64,000 bases of DNA from an uncultured Flavobacteriaceae bacterium (GTDB lineage: Bacteria; Bacteroidota; Bacteroidia; Flavobacteriales; Flavobacteriaceae). Positions 8,725 to 50,273 of the stretch are shown one piece after another. Positions within the stretch are counted from its first letter, which is position 1. Each line of letters starts with the position of its first letter. The stretch spans positions 124,001 to 188,000 of the forward strand of contig CAJIYJ010000005.1 in the NCBI GenBank assembly GCA_905181625.1, in the 5' to 3' direction. Both the position numbers and the translations under genes were made by a program. The notes beneath the pieces are model-generated. The model was not told the origin of the DNA, did no database searches, and was given only the letters and a program-made list of their open reading frames with translations.

Positions 8725-8769
8725 TTATGCAATTTAATAAATCATTTACAATATGGGAGAGATTAATTG

Positions 8770-8847
8770 ATAACATTAAGTTCACATTATAATGACTTAT
8801 TGATAATATTCATTTAACAATTAATTTAAATTCAATCTAGTTATTTG
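8770..8847 (+). promoter_or_regulatory. Putative Pho-box array and core promoter of the surface lipoprotein gene
   Basis: Octamers close to TTAACATT recur every 11 bp: ATAACATT at 8770, TTCACATT at 8781, a poor ATGACTTA at 8792, ATAATATT at 8803, TTAACAAT at 8814 and TTTAAATT at 8825. TTTG of a -7-like element (GTTATTTG) is at 8844-8847, exactly 30 bp after the start of the 8814 repeat. OmpR/PhoB-type regulators bind direct repeats with an 11-bp period, and the sequence resembles Bacillus PhoP (TTAACA) and cyanobacterial Pho boxes. The assignment to PhoB is an inference. Confidence 0.6.
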
Positions 8848-8880
8848 CAGTATTAATTAACTCAAAATAAAAAAATTATA

Positions 8881-10389
8881 ATGAAAACATTTTTAAAATT
8901 TCCCATTTTTACTTTAATCTCTGGAATGCTATTGTTTACCGCATGTAGTGATGATGATGATACATTAACAGACATTAATGCTGCTCCTGTGTCACAAAAC
9001 TTAAATGCTTCTGTTTCAGAGGGAAAGTCTCTAGACATCACATTAGTTGCCACAGATTCTGATTACGATGCTTTGACTTTTTCTATAGTTACTCCTCCTA
9101 CTTTAGGAACAGTGGTTATTACAGAAAATATTGCTAAATACACCCCAAATGAAAATGCAGATGGACTAGACACTTTTACTTATAAGGCAAACGATGGTAA
9201 TACAGACAGTGCTCCATCAACAGTAACTGTAACTGTAAATGGGTTTTTTATTTTAAATGGAACTTACACTAAAAACAAAATTTTAACAGCCGATAAAATT
9301 TGGAATTTAAAAGGGAGAGTGTTTATTGCTGATGGTGCTACATTAACTATCCCAGCTGGAACAATAATAAAAGCTGATGGTGGCACTGGTACTGATGCTA
9401 CTTTTATCTGTATTGCTAGAGGCGGGAAAATTGATGCTCAAGGAACTGCTGATAAGCCAATTGTTATGACTTCAATTGCTGACGACATTAAAGTCGGTGA
9501 AAAATATGGTTCAAATCTTACAATTGACAATAGAGGATTATGGGGTGGATTGCTAATTTTAGGAAAAGCTCCTGGATCCTTTAAAGGAGATGTTAGTGAA
9601 TATCAAATAGAAGGTATTCCTGCTTCTGAAACAAAAGGTTTATATGGAGGGTCAGATACTGCTGACAATTCAGGAACTGTAAAATATCTTTCTATACGTC
9701 ATGGTGGTGCTTCAATAGGTGCTGATAATGAAATTAACGGATTAACTCTAGGTGGAGTTGGGAATGGAACTACTATTTCTAACGTAGAAGTTGTAGCAAA
9801 TGTTGATGATGGAGTAGAATTCTTTGGAGGAACGGTAGATGCTTCGAACTTATTAGTATGGGGGCAAGGAGATGATGGATTAGATATCGACCAATCATAC
9901 GCGGGAAAAATTAGCAATTCAATAGTTATTCTTACTAAAGCTTCAGATCATGGGTTAGAAATAGATGGTCCTGAAGGATCAATGAAAGCTTCTTTCACTT
10001 TAGAAAATATAACTATTATAGCAACTGATGAAAGTACTAGTTCATATGCTGATTTCAGAAAAGGTGCTCTTGGTACTGTAACTAAAGTATATGCATATGG
10101 ATTTGCAAAAGGGTCTAATTTCGAACTTGATGCAACTGCTGATAGCACTAACTTCTCTGATGGAACATTAAACTTTTCAAGTATGGAAATCGTTGTTCCT
10201 ATTGATGATTCTTTAGCTGGGGGAGAGATATTTGATGACAAATCTGATTCTCCAGATGCTAATTTTGAAAATGCAAAAAATAAAGACGGAGTTATATTTG
10301 CAACAAATGTAACGCTGGGAGCTCAAACAGTTGGAGCTACAGTTTCTGACTTTGCTTGGACATTTGCTAATAACAACTCTGCATTCTAA
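8881..10389 (+). CDS. Surface lipoprotein with Ig/cadherin-like and parallel beta-helix domains
   Basis: 502 aa. Signal peptide with lipobox LFTAC; Cys22 is the lipidation site. It is followed by SDDDD, which resembles the acidic lipoprotein export signal known from Bacteroidota, so it is probably exposed on the cell surface. Residues about 30-118 form a tandem-95/cadherin-like domain (VATDSDYDALTF, DGLDTFTYKANDG). Residues about 120-502 are Gly/Asp-rich short strands (ADGATLTIPAGTIIKADGG, VDDGVEFFGGTVDASN) typical of a right-handed beta-helix. No catalytic motif is recognised. The promoter shares the Pho-like repeats of the receptor and porin genes, and the receptor follows after a terminator, so it likely binds a phosphorus substrate or calcium-linked ligand at the surface. 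The exact function is unknown. Confidence 0.75.
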   Translation: MKTFLKFPIFTLISGMLLFTACSDDDDTLTDINAAPVSQNLNASVSEGKSLDITLVATDSDYDALTFSIVTPPTLGTVVITENIAKYTPNENADGLDTFTYKANDGNTDSAPSTVTVTVNGFFILNGTYTKNKILTADKIWNLKGRVFIADGATLTIPAGTIIKADGGTGTDATFICIARGGKIDAQGTADKPIVMTSIADDIKVGEKYGSNLTIDNRGLWGGLLILGKAPGSFKGDVSEYQIEGIPASETKGLYGGSDTADNSGTVKYLSIRHGGASIGADNEINGLTLGGVGNGTTISNVEVVANVDDGVEFFGGTVDASNLLVWGQGDDGLDIDQSYAGKISNSIVILTKASDHGLEIDGPEGSMKASFTLENITIIATDESTSSYADFRKGALGTVTKVYAYGFAKGSNFELDATADSTNFSDGTLNFSSMEIVVPIDDSLAGGEIFDDKSDSPDANFENAKNKDGVIFATNVTLGAQTVGATVSDFAWTFANNNSAF

Positions 10390-10411
10390 AAAATTCATTT
10401 TTATATTAATT

Positions 10412-10447
10412 AAAAAGCCCTGTCTTAAAATAAGACAGGACTTTTTA
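10412..10447 (+). terminator. Intrinsic terminator after the surface lipoprotein gene
   Basis: Long hairpin: AAAAAG and CTGTCTTA pair with TAAGACAG and CTTTTT around a loop of three A (10428-10430), with one C-A mismatch in the stem. Ends in a five-T run. It separates the lipoprotein from the receptor promoter, so the two genes are transcribed independently. Confidence 0.75.
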
Positions 10448-10450
10448 ATG

Positions 10451-10495
10451 TTAACCTTCGCTTAACATTAAATATCTAAGTGAAGTAGATATTTG
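10451..10495 (+). promoter_or_regulatory. Putative Pho box and core promoter of the TonB-dependent receptor
   Basis: TTAACCTT at 10451 and TTAACATT at 10462 form a clean 11-bp direct repeat. The -7-like GATATTTG ends at 10495, so its TTTG begins 30 bp after the second repeat, the same phasing as at the lipoprotein promoter. Both genes also share the core TAGnTATTTGCA. The leader is only about 10 bases. Confidence 0.6.
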
Positions 10496-10508
10496 CAAAA
10501 ATAAATTA

Positions 10509-13313
10509 ATGAAAAATCTATTACTTAACACTTTTCTAGTGTTTATTTCCGTTTTTAGTCTTAATGCCCAATCAGGGTTGATTAGAGGAGTTATAATCGA
10601 CAATGAATTCCAAGATCCTGTCCCTTTTACTAATATAATAGTGAAAGAGGTGGGTACTGGAACAACGTCAGATTTTGATGGAAATTATGAGATTGAACTA
10701 AGTGAAGGTGTTTATACATTAATGTTTTCATTTATGGGATATGAAACTCTTGAAATCAGCGATGTAAAAGTAAGCAGTCAAGAGTTAGCAGTTGTAAATG
10801 TAACAATGAATACACTAGCTCAAGGTTTAGATGAAGTTGTTATTTCTGTTAGTGCTAGTAAAAACACTGAAACATCGGTATTGGAGTTTCAAAAAAAATC
10901 AGTAAGCTTAGTTGATGGTTTATCATCACAACGGATCAAATCATCTGGAGCTTCAAATATTGCATCAGCAGTCAAATCAGTGCCTGGGGTTTCTGTTCAG
11001 GGAGGTAAATATGTTTACGTAAGAGGCCTTGGGGACAGGTATACTAAATCTATTTTAAATGGTATTGATATTCCAGGATTAGATCCCGATAGAAATACTA
11101 TTCAAATGGATATTTTTCCAACTAATATTTTAGATAATGTAATTGTTATTAAATCCGCAACAGCAGATATGCCAGCAGATTTTACTGGTGGAATTGTAGA
11201 TGTATTAACTAAAGAATTTCCTAATTCTAAACGACTTTCAATATCTGTTAGTTCAGCTTACAATCCTAAGATGCATTACAATAATAATTATTTATCATCC
11301 GTGTCTAGTAATACAGACTTTTTAGGCTTTGATGATGGTTTAAGGTCAATTCCAGTTAACCCTAATCAAGGTTATAGTGTGCTAGAAGGAATTAATAGTC
11401 CTAAAATAAGTGAAGTCACTAATAAGTTTAATCCTAATATGTCCGCTTTAAAAAAAACAAGTTTAGGGGATTATAGTTTTAGTATTTCAGGAGGAAATCA
11501 AAAAACAATTGGAAGTGATATGAGGCTTGGATATTTTGGGTCTTTTAGTTATAAAAATACTACTGATTTTTATGAAAAATCTCAAAACAATACATTTTAC
11601 AAGGAAGCTGATTCAAAAATTTTTCAGTTATCAAAAAACAGAACTCAGAATGGCCCATTAGGTCAAAACTCTGTTATTTTAAGCGCAATGGGTGGTTTCT
11701 CATTTAAAACTAGTTTGTCAAAATATAAATTAAATATATTACATATTCAAAATGGAGAATCTTCTGCAGGTATTTTTGATCAAACTGTGAACTTAAACGA
11801 TTCTAAAGAACTTTTAAAACACAACTTAGATTATACTCAACGAGCTATTACTAATATATTAATTTCTGGAACTCATACATTTAACCAAGATAGTGCCTGG
11901 AAATTAAATTGGAAACTTTCTCCAACAAAATCATCTATAAAAGACAAAGATGTTCGAACTACTTCTTTTGAAGTCGTTGATAATGGCACTTTTCAAATTA
12001 AAGAAAATGATAAGCCAACTAGAATTTGGCGAAATTTAGATGAATTAAATTTGGTAGGAAAATTAGATTTAGAAAGGAAATTGAAGTTATTTAATAACGA
12101 TTCTAAATTAAAATTTGGGACATTAGGCTCCTTTAAGGAAAGAGAGTACGATATTTATAGTTTTAGAATCAATGTTCCTGATAATATGGGAATATTAAAT
12201 AACGGTAATCCTGATGATTTACTTAAATCGTCAAATTTATGGTCTCCTAATAATATTTTTGGAAATCATATTGCCCTTTATACAAATGGTGGGGTTGAAA
12301 AAGGAAAAAATTATGATGCCAATCAATTAACATTAGCAGGCTATTCTTCTATAGAATTTAAAATAGGAATTAAATTAAAATCTGTAATAGGAATTAGAGC
12401 TGAAAAATTTATTCAAAAATATTCTGGCGAAAACAGTGGAGGAACAATAAATTATCAAGATGAGAAGGTAATTGACAAATTAGATGTATTCCCATCGACA
12501 AATTTAATATATTCTTTAAAAGAAAATTCTAACATACGTTTTTCATATTCAAAAACAACAGCCAGACCATCTTTTAAAGAGGCTTCTATTGCAGAAATTT
12601 TTGATCCACTTTCAAATATGACTTTTATAGGGAATATTAAGCTTAGACCTAGTTACATAGATAATCTAGATTTGAGATTTGAAATTTTTGGAGACAAAAA
12701 TGAACTGTTTGCAGTAAGTGGGTTTTATAAATCATTTCAAGACCCAATAGAACTTAGCTATTATGAATCTGCAACTGAAAATTTTCAACCAAAAAATTTA
12801 GGTAATGCAAAAGTTTTTGGACTAGAATTTGAAATGAGAAAACAAATAAGTCAGGCTATAGGAATAAATATTAATGCTTCTATAATTGAATCCAAACAAG
12901 AATATGGAACAAGCGAGTTAAACTTAAGGACAAATGGTTTAAGAGCTGGAGAATCTTTAGGAACATACAGAAGGCTTCAAGGGCAATCTCCTTATTTAAT
13001 CAATTCTAGTATAGATTATAAAGATGAAAATGGACTAATTACAGGATTATTTTTTAATATGCAAGGGAAAACCTTAGAGGTTGTTGGAACAGGTTTTGCC
13101 CCTGATGTATATACTCACCCATTTGAAAGCTTAAACTTTAATCTATCTAAAAAAATCGGAGAAAATAAGAACAAAACATTTACAGTAAAGATTGAAAATC
13201 TATTAGATAGTAAAAAAGAAAGTTATTACGAGTCGTTTAAAGCAGTAAACAGAATATTTTCATTTAGAGATTTAGGCAGAACTTTTTCGATTGGTTATAA
13301 TGTTAATTTTTAG
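10509..13313 (+). CDS. TonB-dependent outer-membrane receptor of a putative phosphorus-acquisition locus
   Basis: 934 aa. Signal peptide ending ...FSLNAQ (about residue 21), carboxypeptidase-D regulatory-like domain (about 25-105, GTGTTSDFDGNYEIEL), plug domain (about 135-235, with YVRGLGDRYTKSILNGIDIP) and a 22-strand-type barrel ending in the aromatic C-terminus NVNF. No STN signalling domain. The receptor would take up a substrate through energy from TonB/ExbBD. It sits between the surface lipoprotein and the porin-PiT pair, and all three promoters carry the same 11-bp repeats, which argues for phosphate or organophosphate rather than sugar. It is not a SusC: no SusD homologue lies nearby. 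Confidence 0.85.
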   Translation: MKNLLLNTFLVFISVFSLNAQSGLIRGVIIDNEFQDPVPFTNIIVKEVGTGTTSDFDGNYEIELSEGVYTLMFSFMGYETLEISDVKVSSQELAVVNVTMNTLAQGLDEVVISVSASKNTETSVLEFQKKSVSLVDGLSSQRIKSSGASNIASAVKSVPGVSVQGGKYVYVRGLGDRYTKSILNGIDIPGLDPDRNTIQMDIFPTNILDNVIVIKSATADMPADFTGGIVDVLTKEFPNSKRLSISVSSAYNPKMHYNNNYLSSVSSNTDFLGFDDGLRSIPVNPNQGYSVLEGINSPKISEVTNKFNPNMSALKKTSLGDYSFSISGGNQKTIGSDMRLGYFGSFSYKNTTDFYEKSQNNTFYKEADSKIFQLSKNRTQNGPLGQNSVILSAMGGFSFKTSLSKYKLNILHIQNGESSAGIFDQTVNLNDSKELLKHNLDYTQRAITNILISGTHTFNQDSAWKLNWKLSPTKSSIKDKDVRTTSFEVVDNGTFQIKENDKPTRIWRNLDELNLVGKLDLERKLKLFNNDSKLKFGTLGSFKEREYDIYSFRINVPDNMGILNNGNPDDLLKSSNLWSPNNIFGNHIALYTNGGVEKGKNYDANQLTLAGYSSIEFKIGIKLKSVIGIRAEKFIQKYSGENSGGTINYQDEKVIDKLDVFPSTNLIYSLKENSNIRFSYSKTTARPSFKEASIAEIFDPLSNMTFIGNIKLRPSYIDNLDLRFEIFGDKNELFAVSGFYKSFQDPIELSYYESATENFQPKNLGNAKVFGLEFEMRKQISQAIGININASIIESKQEYGTSELNLRTNGLRAGESLGTYRRLQGQSPYLINSSIDYKDENGLITGLFFNMQGKTLEVVGTGFAPDVYTHPFESLNFNLSKKIGENKNKTFTVKIENLLDSKKESYYESFKAVNRIFSFRDLGRTFSIGYNVNF

Positions 13314-13514
13314 TTTGAACAATTTAATTTTTTATTTAGAATATTAAATGATTAAAATAAGCACACTATAATAAAGCCCTTTATTACAATTATTTTTATC
13401 TATGGCAAAATCCTAACCAATTATTATAACTGAACTGTAATTAAATTTTTTACCAATCAAAAAAACACTTAAATACATGACTTTTAATTCAAAAAAAAGA
13501 TACTCCTATCTTTG

Positions 13515-13586
13515 TTAACATTAAATTAACTATTTAGTAACATAACAATTTCTTAACATTGGAATTGTTCATTTCAATTAAATTCG
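13515..13586 (+). promoter_or_regulatory. Putative Pho-box array and core promoter of the porin-PiT operon
   Basis: Within the 286-base gap before the porin: TTAACATT at 13515, TTAACTAT at 13526 and GTAACATA at 13537 (11-bp period), then ATAACAAT at 13542 and TTAACATT at 13553, again 11 bp apart in a second phase. A -7-like TAAATTCG lies at 13579-13586; its TTCG starts 30 bp after the last repeat, as at the other two promoters. A perfect TATCTTTG at 13507-13514 lies just upstream of the array; transcription from it would run through the repeats. The first part of the gap (13314-13506) holds only a weak A/T hairpin near 13370-13385 that might end the receptor transcript. Confidence 0.62.
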
Positions 13587-14601: not shown

Positions 14602-16969
14602 ATGAACTTTCTTAACATTAATTTTAGCTCATCTATTTTCGAATTATCGAACTTTAATTCTCAATTTAGTAATGATATGGATATCTATCTAATAATGATC
14701 ATCGCACTAGGTCTTCTTGCTATAGGAGATTTAGTTGTTGGAGTTAGTAACGATGCGGTGAATTTTTTAAATTCAGCTATTGGGTCAAAAGTGTTGAGCT
14801 TTAGATCAATAATGATTGTTGCTAGTCTTGGAATAGCTGTTGGTGCTGTATTCTCTAGTGGGATGATGGAAGTAGCTAGAAAAGGGATTTTTAATCCTGA
14901 TATGTTTTTCTTTTCGGAAATCATGATAATTTTTATGGCAGTAATGATTACTGACATTTTATTGTTAGATTTTTTTAATACCCTTGGGATGCCGACATCA
15001 ACCACTGTTTCGATAGTCTTTGAATTATTAGGCGCAGCCGTTGCAGTTTCATTAATTAAAATATTTGCCGGAGGAGGAGAGTTTAGTGATTTATCACAAT
15101 ATATTAATGTAGCTAAAGCAACTCAAATAATATTTGGGATACTTCTTTCAGTATTTGTTGCTTTTAGTATTGGGGCAGTTGTTCAATATGTTTCAAGAAT
15201 TTTACTTTCATTCAAATTCGAAGCAAAAGAAAAATGGGTCGGAGCTTTATTTGGAGGTGTAGCGCTTACCTCCATAACATATTTTATTTTGATGAAAGGC
15301 ATCAAAGGAACTCCTTATGCAAAGGAAAGTTTTGAAATATTAAATGGCTCTACTATTGCCTCTTTTATGGAATCTAATGTTCTTGGAATTGCACTAGTAA
15401 GTTTTATAATTTTGTTTTTGTTTTCTGCTTTTTTAATTTATAGACTTAAAAATCAATATTTATAAATTAATTATAGCAATCGGTACTTTTTCTTTAGCAC
15501 TTGCATTTGCAGGAAATGATCTAGTTAATTTTATTGGAGTTCCAATTGCTGCATGGCAATCTTACGAAGCTTGGGTTGTATCGGGTGTTCCAGCAACAGA
15601 ATTTTCTATGGGGATATTAGCTGCTAAAGTGCCAACACCTACCTTACTATTGTTGCTTGCTGGAATTATAATGGTTATTACATTGTGGTTCTCTTCACGA
15701 GCTAAAAATGTTGTTAAAACATCTATTGATTTATCTAACCAAGAAAATACTAAAGAAAGGTTTAAAGCAAATTTTTTATCTAGAGGGCTGGTTAGACTTT
15801 CCGTTAATGTTTCAAATGTGTTTTCAAAAGTAATTCCAATAAAAATACAAGCTCATATTGAAAGTCAGTTTGAAAAACCTTCAATAGAATTAGCTTCAAA
15901 TAAGTCACTAGAATTACCTGCTTTTGATCAAATTAGAGCTGCTGTAAATTTAATGGTTGCTGCAATATTAATATCAATCGCTACATCTTTTAAACTTCCT
16001 TTATCAACTACTTATGTGACATTTATGGTTGCTATGGGAACTTCACTTGCTGATAGAGCTTGGGGAAGTGAAAGCGCAGTGTATAGAGTCGCTGGAGTAC
16101 TTAACGTTATTGGGGGATGGTTTTTTACTGCATTTATAGCTTTTATAGGATGTGGGATAATGGCCTTTTTAATAAACCTAGGAGGGCCTTCTGCTGTTGC
16201 TATTTTATTGTTTTTAGCTTTAATAATCTTAGCTAAAAATTACATTTCTCATAAAAAAGATGTGGATCAAGTTAACAGTGAAGATGTTTTAAGTTTAGCG
16301 GAAAGCCGTTCAATTCAAGGACTAATAATAGAAAGCTCTAAAAACGTTTCTAAGGCGTCAAAAAAAATAAAAAATATCTTTATTAATTCAATTGATGGGT
16401 TAGCTACCCAAAATTTATCTGGTTTAAAAGCTAATAAAAAAGCCGTAAAAATTCTTTCAGAACAAATAGATAACTTAAGAAATGATTTGTTTTACTTTAT
16501 TAAAAATTTAGATGAATCTACCATTAAAGGTGCTAGTAATTTTTATATAAATGTATTGGGTTCTCTAGAAGATATTGCTCAGTCCCTAGAATATATTTCA
16601 AAAATCACATTTAAACATATAAATAACAATCATAAAGCCTTAACCTTTAATCAAATTAGAGAGTTAAAAGAAATTAGTCTTCAATTAGAAACTTTATTTG
16701 ACAGAGTGAAATTTGCTTTTTCTAAAAATAACTTTAATGAAATTCCTAATATTTTAGATATTAAACAAATTTTATTAGACTCTGTTAGAGAAAAAATTGA
16801 TAATCAAATTTCTAGAACAAAATCTGAGGAATCAAGTCCTAAAAACACAACTCTTTACTTTAGCCTTCTAACTGAAACTAAAGATTTAATAAAGGCAACT
16901 ATGGCAATGTTAGAGATTTACAATGAACAATATGATTCAAAAGTAAAACTTCCAAAAAGTAATGAATAA
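14602..16969 (+). CDS. PiT-family phosphate permease fused to a C-terminal PhoU-like domain (frameshifted)
   Basis: Inner-membrane phosphate:cation symporter. The first frame (14602-15465) gives the N-terminal half with the PiT signature GVSNDAVNFLNSAIGS. It hits TAA at 15463-15465, but the +1 frame continues without a stop as KINIYKLIIAIGTFSLALAF plus GNDLVNFIGVPIAA, the second PiT signature, then further helices and a helical tail (from about 16260) resembling PhoU. Removing one A from the run at 15448-15452 restores one 788-aa protein. This is probably a sequencing error; if real, the permease is dead. The tail may gate transport. Cotranscribed with the porin. Confidence 0.87.
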
Positions 16970-49162: not shown

Positions 49163-50164
49163 CTAAGGAACTTCAACTTGATTAACTATTTTATTTATAA
49201 TATCTTCAGAAGTGATGTTTTCGGCTTCAGCCTCATAAGTTAAACCAATTCTATGCCTTAGGACATCGTGAATTACAGATCTTACATCTTCTGGAACAAC
49301 ATATCCTCTTCTTCTAATAAAAGCATAACAACGTGAAGCATTTGCTAGATTAATACTTCCTCTTGGTGAAGCTCCAAAATTAATTAATGGCTTAAGCTCT
49401 TTTAATCCGTATTTCTCAGGATACCTTGTTGCAAATACTAAGTTTAAAATATATTTTTCAATTTTTTCGTCCATATATACCATTCTAACGGATTCTTGAG
49501 CCTTAATAATTTCCTTAATACTAACAACAGGCTTGATTTCACCAAAACTGTTATTAATATTTGCTCTAACAATTTGTTGTTCATCCTCAATATTCGGATA
49601 ATCTATAATGGTTTTTAACATAAATCTATCTACTTGAGCTTCAGGAAGGGGATAGGTCCCCTCTTGCTCAACTGGATTCTGAGTTGCCATAACAAGAAAT
49701 GGTGGCTGAAGTTTAAAAGTGGTATCTCCAATGGTCACCTGTTTCTCTTGCATAGATTCTAAAAGGGCAGACTGCACTTTAGCAGGAGCTCTATTTATTT
49801 CGTCTGCTAGTACAAAGTTTGCGAAAATTGGGCCTTTCTTAATAGAAAAGTCATTCTCTTTCATGTTGTAAATCATAGTTCCCACAACATCTGCAGGAAG
49901 TAAATCTGGTGTAAACTGAATACGACTAAAACTGCCTTTAACAGCTTTGCTTAGTGAATTTATAGCCAGCGTTTTAGCAAGTCCAGGAACTCCTTCTAAA
50001 AGAATGTGTCCTTGCCCTAAAAGCCCTATCAAAAGCCTTTCTATCATGTGTCTTTGACCAATAATAACTTTGTTGATTTCTAACACTAAAAGGTCTATAA
50101 ACGCACTTTCTTTTTGAATTTTTTCATTGATTTCTTTAATATCAATATTTTTATTATTCTCCAT
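49163..50164 (-). CDS. MoxR-type AAA+ ATPase
   Basis: 333 aa. Walker A GVPGLAKT (about 58), Walker B FVLADEINRAP (about 118), sensor MATQNPVEQEGTYPLPEAQ with the MoxR-specific extension, and a C-terminal helical lid. Acts as chaperone-like activator of VWA proteins, here the DUF58 and Bat proteins that follow. First gene of the eight-gene operon. Confidence 0.94.
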   Translation of the reverse strand: MENNKNIDIKEINEKIQKESAFIDLLVLEINKVIIGQRHMIERLLIGLLGQGHILLEGVPGLAKTLAINSLSKAVKGSFSRIQFTPDLLPADVVGTMIYNMKENDFSIKKGPIFANFVLADEINRAPAKVQSALLESMQEKQVTIGDTTFKLQPPFLVMATQNPVEQEGTYPLPEAQVDRFMLKTIIDYPNIEDEQQIVRANINNSFGEIKPVVSIKEIIKAQESVRMVYMDEKIEKYILNLVFATRYPEKYGLKELKPLINFGASPRGSINLANASRCYAFIRRRGYVVPEDVRSVIHDVLRHRIGLTYEAEAENITSEDIINKIVNQVEVP

Positions 50165-50211: not shown

Positions 50212-50241
50212 CAATTTGAATAAAAAAAATCATTCAAATTG
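50212..50241. other. Inverted repeat between nadD and moxR
   Basis: Perfect 10-bp arms CAATTTGAAT / ATTCAAATTG around a 10-base A-rich loop. No T-run follows on the minus strand, so it is not a classical terminator; it may protect the nadD transcript end or be an operator for moxR. The rest of the 109-base gap has nothing clear. Confidence 0.4.
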
Positions 50242-50273
50242 TTAATAATTGGTTAAATATTAGATGAAACTAA

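Follow-up and report, generated by a model that had tools for sequence, protein, structure and literature searches.

The stretch of DNA analysed in this study (the window; 64,000 bp from the genome of an uncultured member of the Flavobacteriaceae) carries on its forward strand a set of genes that were identified from their open reading frames (ORFs) and by domain searches. These encode (i) a lipoprotein with a Big_9 domain (positions 8881-10389), homologous to the FI, FII and FIII lipoproteins of Flavobacterium johnsoniae, (ii) a TonB-dependent receptor with CarbopepD_reg_2 and Plug domains (10509-13313), (iii) a porin O/P-like outer-membrane protein (PF07396; 13600-14598) and (iv) a PiT phosphate permease, whose first part (PF01384; 14602-15465) is followed by a second part in a separate ORF (15608-16969), which lies below the Pfam cut-off. 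The ORFs and domains agree with an earlier reading of the window made from its letters (the sequence-only reading), which had named a porin O/P-like gene and a PiT permease among the genes served by three repeat-bearing promoters. Since the PiT gene starts 3 bp past the porin gene, the two are probably cotranscribed. Homologs of the lipoprotein were found in 282 of 299 genomes of the family (E≤1e-15), and homologs of the receptor in 65 of 149 relatives (E≤1e-60).

In a close relative with a 99% identical receptor, the PiT permease is encoded by a single ORF (L066, 4172-6463); the split ORF in the window (14602-16969) is a frameshift or an assembly error. The gap between the lipoprotein and receptor genes contains a hairpin followed by a T-run (about 10412-10447). 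Differing hairpin-like stretches were seen by eye at the same gap in several relatives without the receptor promoter (several of the loci L043-L062), hinting at attenuation or mRNA processing.

Repeat arrays in the window

A repeat is present at every start position given in the sequence-only reading, and all of the elements described here lie on the forward strand. The candidate PhoB-box array of the lipoprotein promoter (8770-8832) is composed of ATAACATT (starting at 8770), TTCACATT (8781), ATGACTTA (8792), ATAATATT (8803), TTAACAAT (8814) and TTTAAATT (8825). Relative to the TTTG at 8844, these repeats occupy the slots -74 (ATAACA), -63 (TTCACA), -52 (ATGACT, degenerate), -41 (ATAATA), -30 (TTAACA) and -19 (TTTAAA), respectively, and the same slots are used in the lipoprotein and receptor promoters of relatives. 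When one mismatch is allowed, slots -74, -63 and -30 pass. The repeat at 8792 had been described as poor; it is weak indeed, and two further repeats, at 8803 and 8825, match TTAACA no better than with two mismatches each.

The receptor promoter contains two candidate PhoB boxes (10451-10469), TTAACCTT at 10451 (slot -41) and TTAACATT at 10462 (slot -30), which were found in six loci (L036-L041), with both slots filled in 5/5 relatives. The candidate array of the porin promoter (13515-13560) comprises TTAACATT (13515), TTAACTAT (13526), GTAACATA (13537), ATAACAAT (13542) and a further copy of TTAACATT (13553). Its last two repeats correspond to slots -41 and -30 and are locked in register to the -7 element, whereas those at 13515, 13526 and 13537 form a separate register, 5 bp off.

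The spacing reported earlier is exact: the repeats at 8814, 10462 and 13553 each start 30 bp ahead of TTTG or TTCG. These tetranucleotides are part of the -7-like elements GTTATTTGC (8840-8848; lipoprotein promoter), GATATTTGC (10488-10496; receptor promoter) and TAAATTCG (13579-13586; porin promoter). They stand where the sequence-only reading had placed them, but the elements themselves are loose matches (GTTATTTG, GATATTTG and TAAATTCG). Among four genomes of the genus, GTTATTTG is invariant; at the porin -7-like element the aligned bases differ among relatives. The same comparison of four genomes revealed a conserved block around the porin repeats, with 40 invariant columns of 53 within 13511-13563 versus 16 of 100 outside it. 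The lipoprotein promoter showed no distinct footprint within the genus (conserved columns: 43/83 inside 8768-8850 versus 36/73 outside).

We also determined the frequency of the motif in this genome, a scan that the sequence-only reading had proposed and that did not raise the patterns above their controls. Pairs of sites that differ from TTAACATT in no more than one letter and are placed 11 bp apart occur in the window twice on the forward strand and never on the reverse strand (other spacings, 0-2), which is a modest excess. For the whole genome, the pattern TTAACATTN3TTAACATT with up to three mismatches gave 94/93 matches versus 104/120 for the reversed pattern, and the phased pattern gave 196/200 versus 182/223 for its control, so neither is enriched. 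With up to two mismatches, the repeat-pair pattern has 16 sites in 1.86 Mb, of which four lie in the three promoters, none of them overlapping an ORF of at least 80 aa; at the same tolerance, three of the genome's 37 phased sites lie within the 4.8 kb that contain the three promoters (Poisson P of about 1.4e-4, calculated post hoc). Because the pair and phased patterns do not exceed the reversed control, the evidence from this single genome is weak. The deciding evidence comes from conservation in the genomes of relatives.

Two further sites were noticed in the same genome. A TTAACC/TTAACA pair (50212-50256, reverse strand), one mismatch off the phased pattern, precedes a gene that we read as moxR-like (49163-50164), and another TonB-receptor promoter, about 7 kb past the window (L349, 1501-1571; G000:C5:194827), has boxes at -41 and -30 with a TTTG in phase.

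Slot geometry and gene context in related genomes

For the comparison of relatives, a box was defined as a TTAACA-like sequence with at most one mismatch at a given distance ahead of TTTG, and the counts refer to loci, not to placements. This analysis revealed a common slot plan for the family, with boxes 19, 30, 41, 63 and 74 bp ahead of TTTG and a degenerate slot at 52 bp. In 36 lipoprotein promoters, boxes were found at 19 bp (20 loci), 30 bp (26), 41 bp (9), 52 bp (6), 63 bp (15) and 74 bp (20), with at most 4 at any other offset. Forty held-out promoters, from genomes unused before, gave 28, 26, 15, 4, 14 and 23 loci for the same slots (other offsets, at most 6). The receptor promoters, taken from named records (Kordia, Algibacter, Maribacter, Aequorivita, Cellulophaga, Flavobacterium and some uncultured bacteria), gave 47, 45, 36, 3, 26 and 43 loci of 66 (other offsets, at most 7); 14 of the 80 named loci were dropped from this set because no in-frame ATG coincides with or precedes the match.

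A box at 19 bp is accompanied by another 11 bp upstream in 18/36 lipoprotein, 22/40 held-out and 34/66 receptor promoters, while the best box pair of any other period occurs in 3, 4 and 6 of them, respectively. The excess per offset on the comb is 25- to 37-fold for lipoprotein and receptor promoters, 10-fold for those of OprP genes and 6-fold for those of PiT genes. Where at least two proximal boxes are present, slot 74 is filled in 32/43 lipoprotein and 34/48 receptor promoters and slot 52 in one of each; an alignment of 71 of the 76 promoters showed the -52 slot to be ATRAC-like, i.e. degenerate rather than random. The lipoprotein promoter of the window fits this plan, and its repeat at 8792 reads like the weak -52 slot of the family.

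Two forms of the array can be distinguished. The -19 box is present in 42/43 lipoprotein, 43/48 receptor and 7/7 OprP promoters that qualify, and a -41/-30 form without it is found in all 12 qualifying PiT promoters and in 5/5 receptor promoters from the genus of the window and one near genus. The receptor and porin promoters of the window belong to the latter form. In genomes outside the data of the sequence-only reading, the repeats keep their 11-bp period and 30-bp phase as well as their association with phosphate genes, and the recurrence of the slot layout in lipoprotein and receptor promoters provides the conservation in relatives for which it had called.

Gene classes were counted in 60 fetched regions (L066-L105 and L211-L230). 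At least two phased boxes were found ahead of 12/32 PiT, 7/23 OprP, 23/61 receptor and 19/56 lipoprotein genes, 3/15 small ORFs with a carboxypeptidase-regulatory domain, 1/19 phoB genes, 0/15 phoR genes and 5/482 other genes; control combs shifted by 3, 5 or 8 bp gave 0-2 in every gene class. The remaining PiT (20/32), OprP (16/23), receptor (38/61) and lipoprotein (37/56) genes have fewer than two phased boxes, and many of these are not the first of their operon. Among the five other genes, two head phosphate operons, namely pstS-pstC-pstA-pstB-phoU (L083) and a porin O/P (OprP) gene followed by pstS to phoU (L216), and a third is a truncated PiT gene (L213, 19584). The small ORFs, of about 128 aa, precede the operon in many relatives (L076, L083, L084, L090, L094, L213, L214 and others), and 12/15 of them have at least one phased box.

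The sequence-only reading had asked whether pstS, phoU, phoX and phoB genes are preceded by the motif. This is the case for pstS and phoU operons in the two relatives named (L083 and L216). It is not the rule for phoX and phoB, where a box is expected of a Pho regulon though not strictly defining for it: phased boxes precede 1/15 PhoX-like loci (any 11-bp pair, 3/15; a further 15 weaker matches were left uncounted) and the single phoB promoter of 19 mentioned above. PhoX was accordingly dropped as a positive control. At L107, the one phoX locus with its ORFs listed, no MauG gene lies beside phoX; the neighbor is a gene that we take to encode a CobW-type GTPase.

A strict form of the pattern was searched in 199 genomes of the family and gave 92 matches in 83 genomes, versus 14 matches of the reversed pattern. 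Thirty of the 92 matches were made into loci, of which 23 lie directly ahead of a receptor gene, five ahead of a lipoprotein gene and one ahead of another gene, the last having no ORF. In a second search, counted from its table, 46 family genomes had 19 matches (6 in the control) and 346 other genomes also had 19 (10 in the control); the excess outside the family is small, and the strict form is therefore mainly a feature of the Flavobacteriaceae. One match outside the family stands ahead of a lipoprotein homolog (L407).

Published Pho boxes and phosphate induction

In the PhoP box of Bacillus subtilis, a TT(A/C/T)ACA-like sequence is directly repeated at intervals of about 11 bp, but this box belongs to another phylum and another promoter type. 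Features similar to the Pho box have been noted for this species (PMC4415409), and PhoB-type regulators are described as binding 11-bp direct repeats head to tail (PMC4415409). The Pho box of Escherichia coli PhoB resembles the arrays studied here in being composed of at least two 8-bp direct repeats with a 3-bp A/T-rich linker, i.e. an 11-bp period (PMC1906773, PMC4415409). It is placed 10 bp upstream of the -10 element (PMC1906773) and has the core CTGTCAT (PMC4415409), in contrast to the TTAACA/TTTACA of the present boxes, whose point of reference is the -7 element of Bacteroidota and which fill up to six slots. The cyanobacterial SphR box is closer, with 8-bp repeats of the CTTAACCT type and a 3-bp linker (variants within one array: TTTAACCT, GTTAACCT and CTTTACC; PMC1906773). 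Its letters are nearly identical to those of the window, and the likeness to cyanobacterial Pho boxes seen earlier is upheld in both letters and spacing. The positions listed for SphR boxes range widely, e.g. from -23 to -403 (PMC1906773), whereas the present boxes keep a constant distance from the promoter core.

Within the flavobacteria, DAP-seq of Riemerella anatipestifer PhoP yielded a motif whose most conserved letters are TTTAACA, and the genes of a TonB receptor and of an outer-membrane barrel are among its targets in EMSA (PMC9603813). This motif is described as ArcA-like, and the available part of its description contains neither promoter spacing nor a phosphate operon (PMC9603813). 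The statement of the sequence-only reading that no flavobacterial Pho box of this form was known is thus nearly right, except that the Riemerella motif had been published under the ArcA-like label. According to the available part of another report, pstS was up 8-fold in a phoPR double deletion of Riemerella, the opposite of activation (PMC5399024). The titles and abstract openings of the literature matches listed announce no flavobacterial Pho box with the present promoter geometry. Given the known letters and spacing, the box is therefore of a known kind, and its promoter geometry looks new.

The closest described gene cluster is PUSIV of F. johnsoniae (Fjoh_0541-0549), which has a receptor and lipoprotein of the same kind as the window. 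PUSIV is reported to contain GT, OprP, PhoR and PhoB genes beside those of a TonB receptor, an FII lipoprotein and a CARDB protein, and most of these genes are reported as induced upon Pi depletion (PMC8115612). The gene order of relatives (GT, PhoR, PhoB, receptor, lipoprotein and, in some, a CARDB protein behind) matches that of PUSIV except for OprP, and these loci are PUSIV-like in having a TonB receptor beside an FII-type lipoprotein, with phoBR or an OprP gene nearby. The window differs from PUSIV in that phoBR is located elsewhere (contig 6), the lipoprotein gene is ahead of the receptor gene, and a PiT permease follows the porin.

The boxes of F. johnsoniae were compared with published induction using a matrix trained on 105 of 139 training promoters of relatives, with the named Flavobacterium loci left out. 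We scored 336 genes in 21 fetched stretches, in which phoX and the PUSI and PUSII genes were not recognised; locus numbers were placed by interpolation, and gene order and domains agree with the published table. As the stretches had been picked around the expected places of induced genes, the ranking applies within these stretches and not to the whole genome. The best scores were those of Fjoh_0545 (1st, 60.7), the OprP gene Fjoh_0542 (2nd, 6.1) and Fjoh_0546 (3rd, -1.4), with Fjoh_4889 in 7th and Fjoh_3841 in 9th place (median, -56.8). In the fold-change column for Pi depletion of Lidbury et al., the values are 8.0 for Fjoh_0545, 9.9 for Fjoh_0546, 11.6 for Fjoh_4889 and 7.7 for Fjoh_3841 (PMC8115612). 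The top ten ranks thus hold 4 of 15 induced genes (hypergeometric P = 4.7e-4; rank test P = 0.015, both within the 336 genes).

The F. johnsoniae orthologs of the receptor and the lipoprotein are box-bearing and published as induced upon phosphate depletion. The OprP gene (L326, 6044-7339) has the second-best predicted Pho promoter of the 336 genes, though phosphate depletion reportedly does not induce it (-1.3, FDR 0.25; PMC8115612). Fjoh_0541 and Fjoh_0549 rank 27th and 44th of 336. Several induced genes of this species lack the box; those of the FI cluster and of the phytase pair take ranks between 29 and 300. Since the FI cluster contains its own ECF sigma factor, it may be under indirect control. 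A lax pattern (up to two mismatches) had no excess in F. johnsoniae (70 matches versus 132 reversed).

The candidate regulator and its proposed action

In 20 of the 66 named-record loci, phoB is no more than 1.5 kb away from the start of the receptor gene, and phoB-phoR is found near the operon, with at most one ORF between, in 12 of 40 regions (read off the map). The genome of the window (about 91% complete) encodes two Trans_reg_C regulators. One is PhoB, with PhoR behind it, on contig 6, which shares 51-57% identity with the operon-linked PhoBs of relatives; the other, on contig 7, is presumably RprY-like.

Very probably, the repeats constitute the operator (Pho box) of the phosphate-starvation regulator PhoB, which would activate the lipoprotein, TonB receptor, porin and PiT genes. 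This reading is based on the repeats, their phase, conservation and gene context, and on the presence of phoB-phoR beside the operon in relatives. At least two direct repeats with an 11-bp period adjoin the promoter core at a fixed phase, stand ahead of phosphate-acquisition operons including pst and phoU, and occur in a genome encoding a PhoB-PhoR pair. The attribution of 11-bp repeats to the PhoB/OmpR class, as proposed from the window, is supported at the sequence level by the geometry and phosphate-gene context of relatives. Binding and phosphorylation of PhoB, activation of the genes, and the position of PhoB in place of a -33 element are predicted.

It is improbable that the boxes bind another OmpR-family regulator, e.g. 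the second one of this genome, that happens to control outer-membrane transport genes. Such a regulator is present, the 11-bp repeat habit is common to OmpR-type proteins, and the pair ahead of the moxR-like gene would fit, as binding of Riemerella PhoP upstream of moxR has been reported (PMC9603813); but the regulator beside the operon in relatives is phoB-phoR, and boxes are found upstream of pst and PiT genes as well. Even less probable is a role of the repeats as part of a sigma-factor promoter or as an AT-rich UP-like element with no activator bound. The repeats are AT-rich and their distance to the -7 element is fixed, yet the copies continue at regular 11-bp steps as far as slot 74, slot 52 being weak, and they mark phosphate genes and not promoters in general. 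Chance in AT-rich DNA, which would suit the lack of enrichment in the genome of the window, has a negligible probability in view of the comb kept by the held-out and named promoter sets, the shifted-comb controls and the excess of strict matches over 199 genomes.

According to the PhoB reading, phosphorylated PhoB would bind the 11-bp direct repeats head to tail when phosphate is low. The boxes closest to the promoter core, at 19, 30 and 41 bp from the TTTG in the -7 element, lie in the place of a -33 element, and we therefore propose that PhoB recruits RNA polymerase there. This recruitment would switch on the lipoprotein, TonB receptor, porin and PiT phosphate permease genes, and the extra pair at -63/-74 may aid cooperative binding of PhoB. 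The helical register of the array with the -7 element is as expected of an activator touching the polymerase. With moderate confidence, we are inclined to assign these promoters of the Flavobacteriaceae to one rigid activator-dependent class. Its PhoB array would have six slots (-74, -63, -52, -41, -30 and -19, of which -52 is weak but conserved) at a fixed distance from the TTTG in the Bacteroidota -7 element, and PhoB would replace the -33 element. Operons of receptor, lipoprotein and OprP genes would have a form that includes the -19 box, and PiT genes, like the receptor and porin genes of the window, a form that lacks it.

Flavobacteria are major degraders in ocean and soil, where phosphorus is often limiting. 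A Pho box readable from sequence would allow the phosphate regulon to be listed in genomes and metagenomes without expression data, and it leads one to expect that the widespread pair of lipoprotein and TonB receptor serves as a core system of phosphate starvation. It also offers a specific arrangement of sites through which an activator could drive Bacteroidota promoters; if true, this would be, to our knowledge, the first activator geometry mapped for the unusual promoters of this phylum.

Autoregulation of phoB was considered and rejected as a general feature, given the outcome of the phased test for phoB promoters and an own phoB whose upstream region has an opposite-strand pair only. This TTAACC/TTAACA pair (G000:C6:62669-62713, reverse strand; L033, 4670-4714) could reflect autoregulation or chance.
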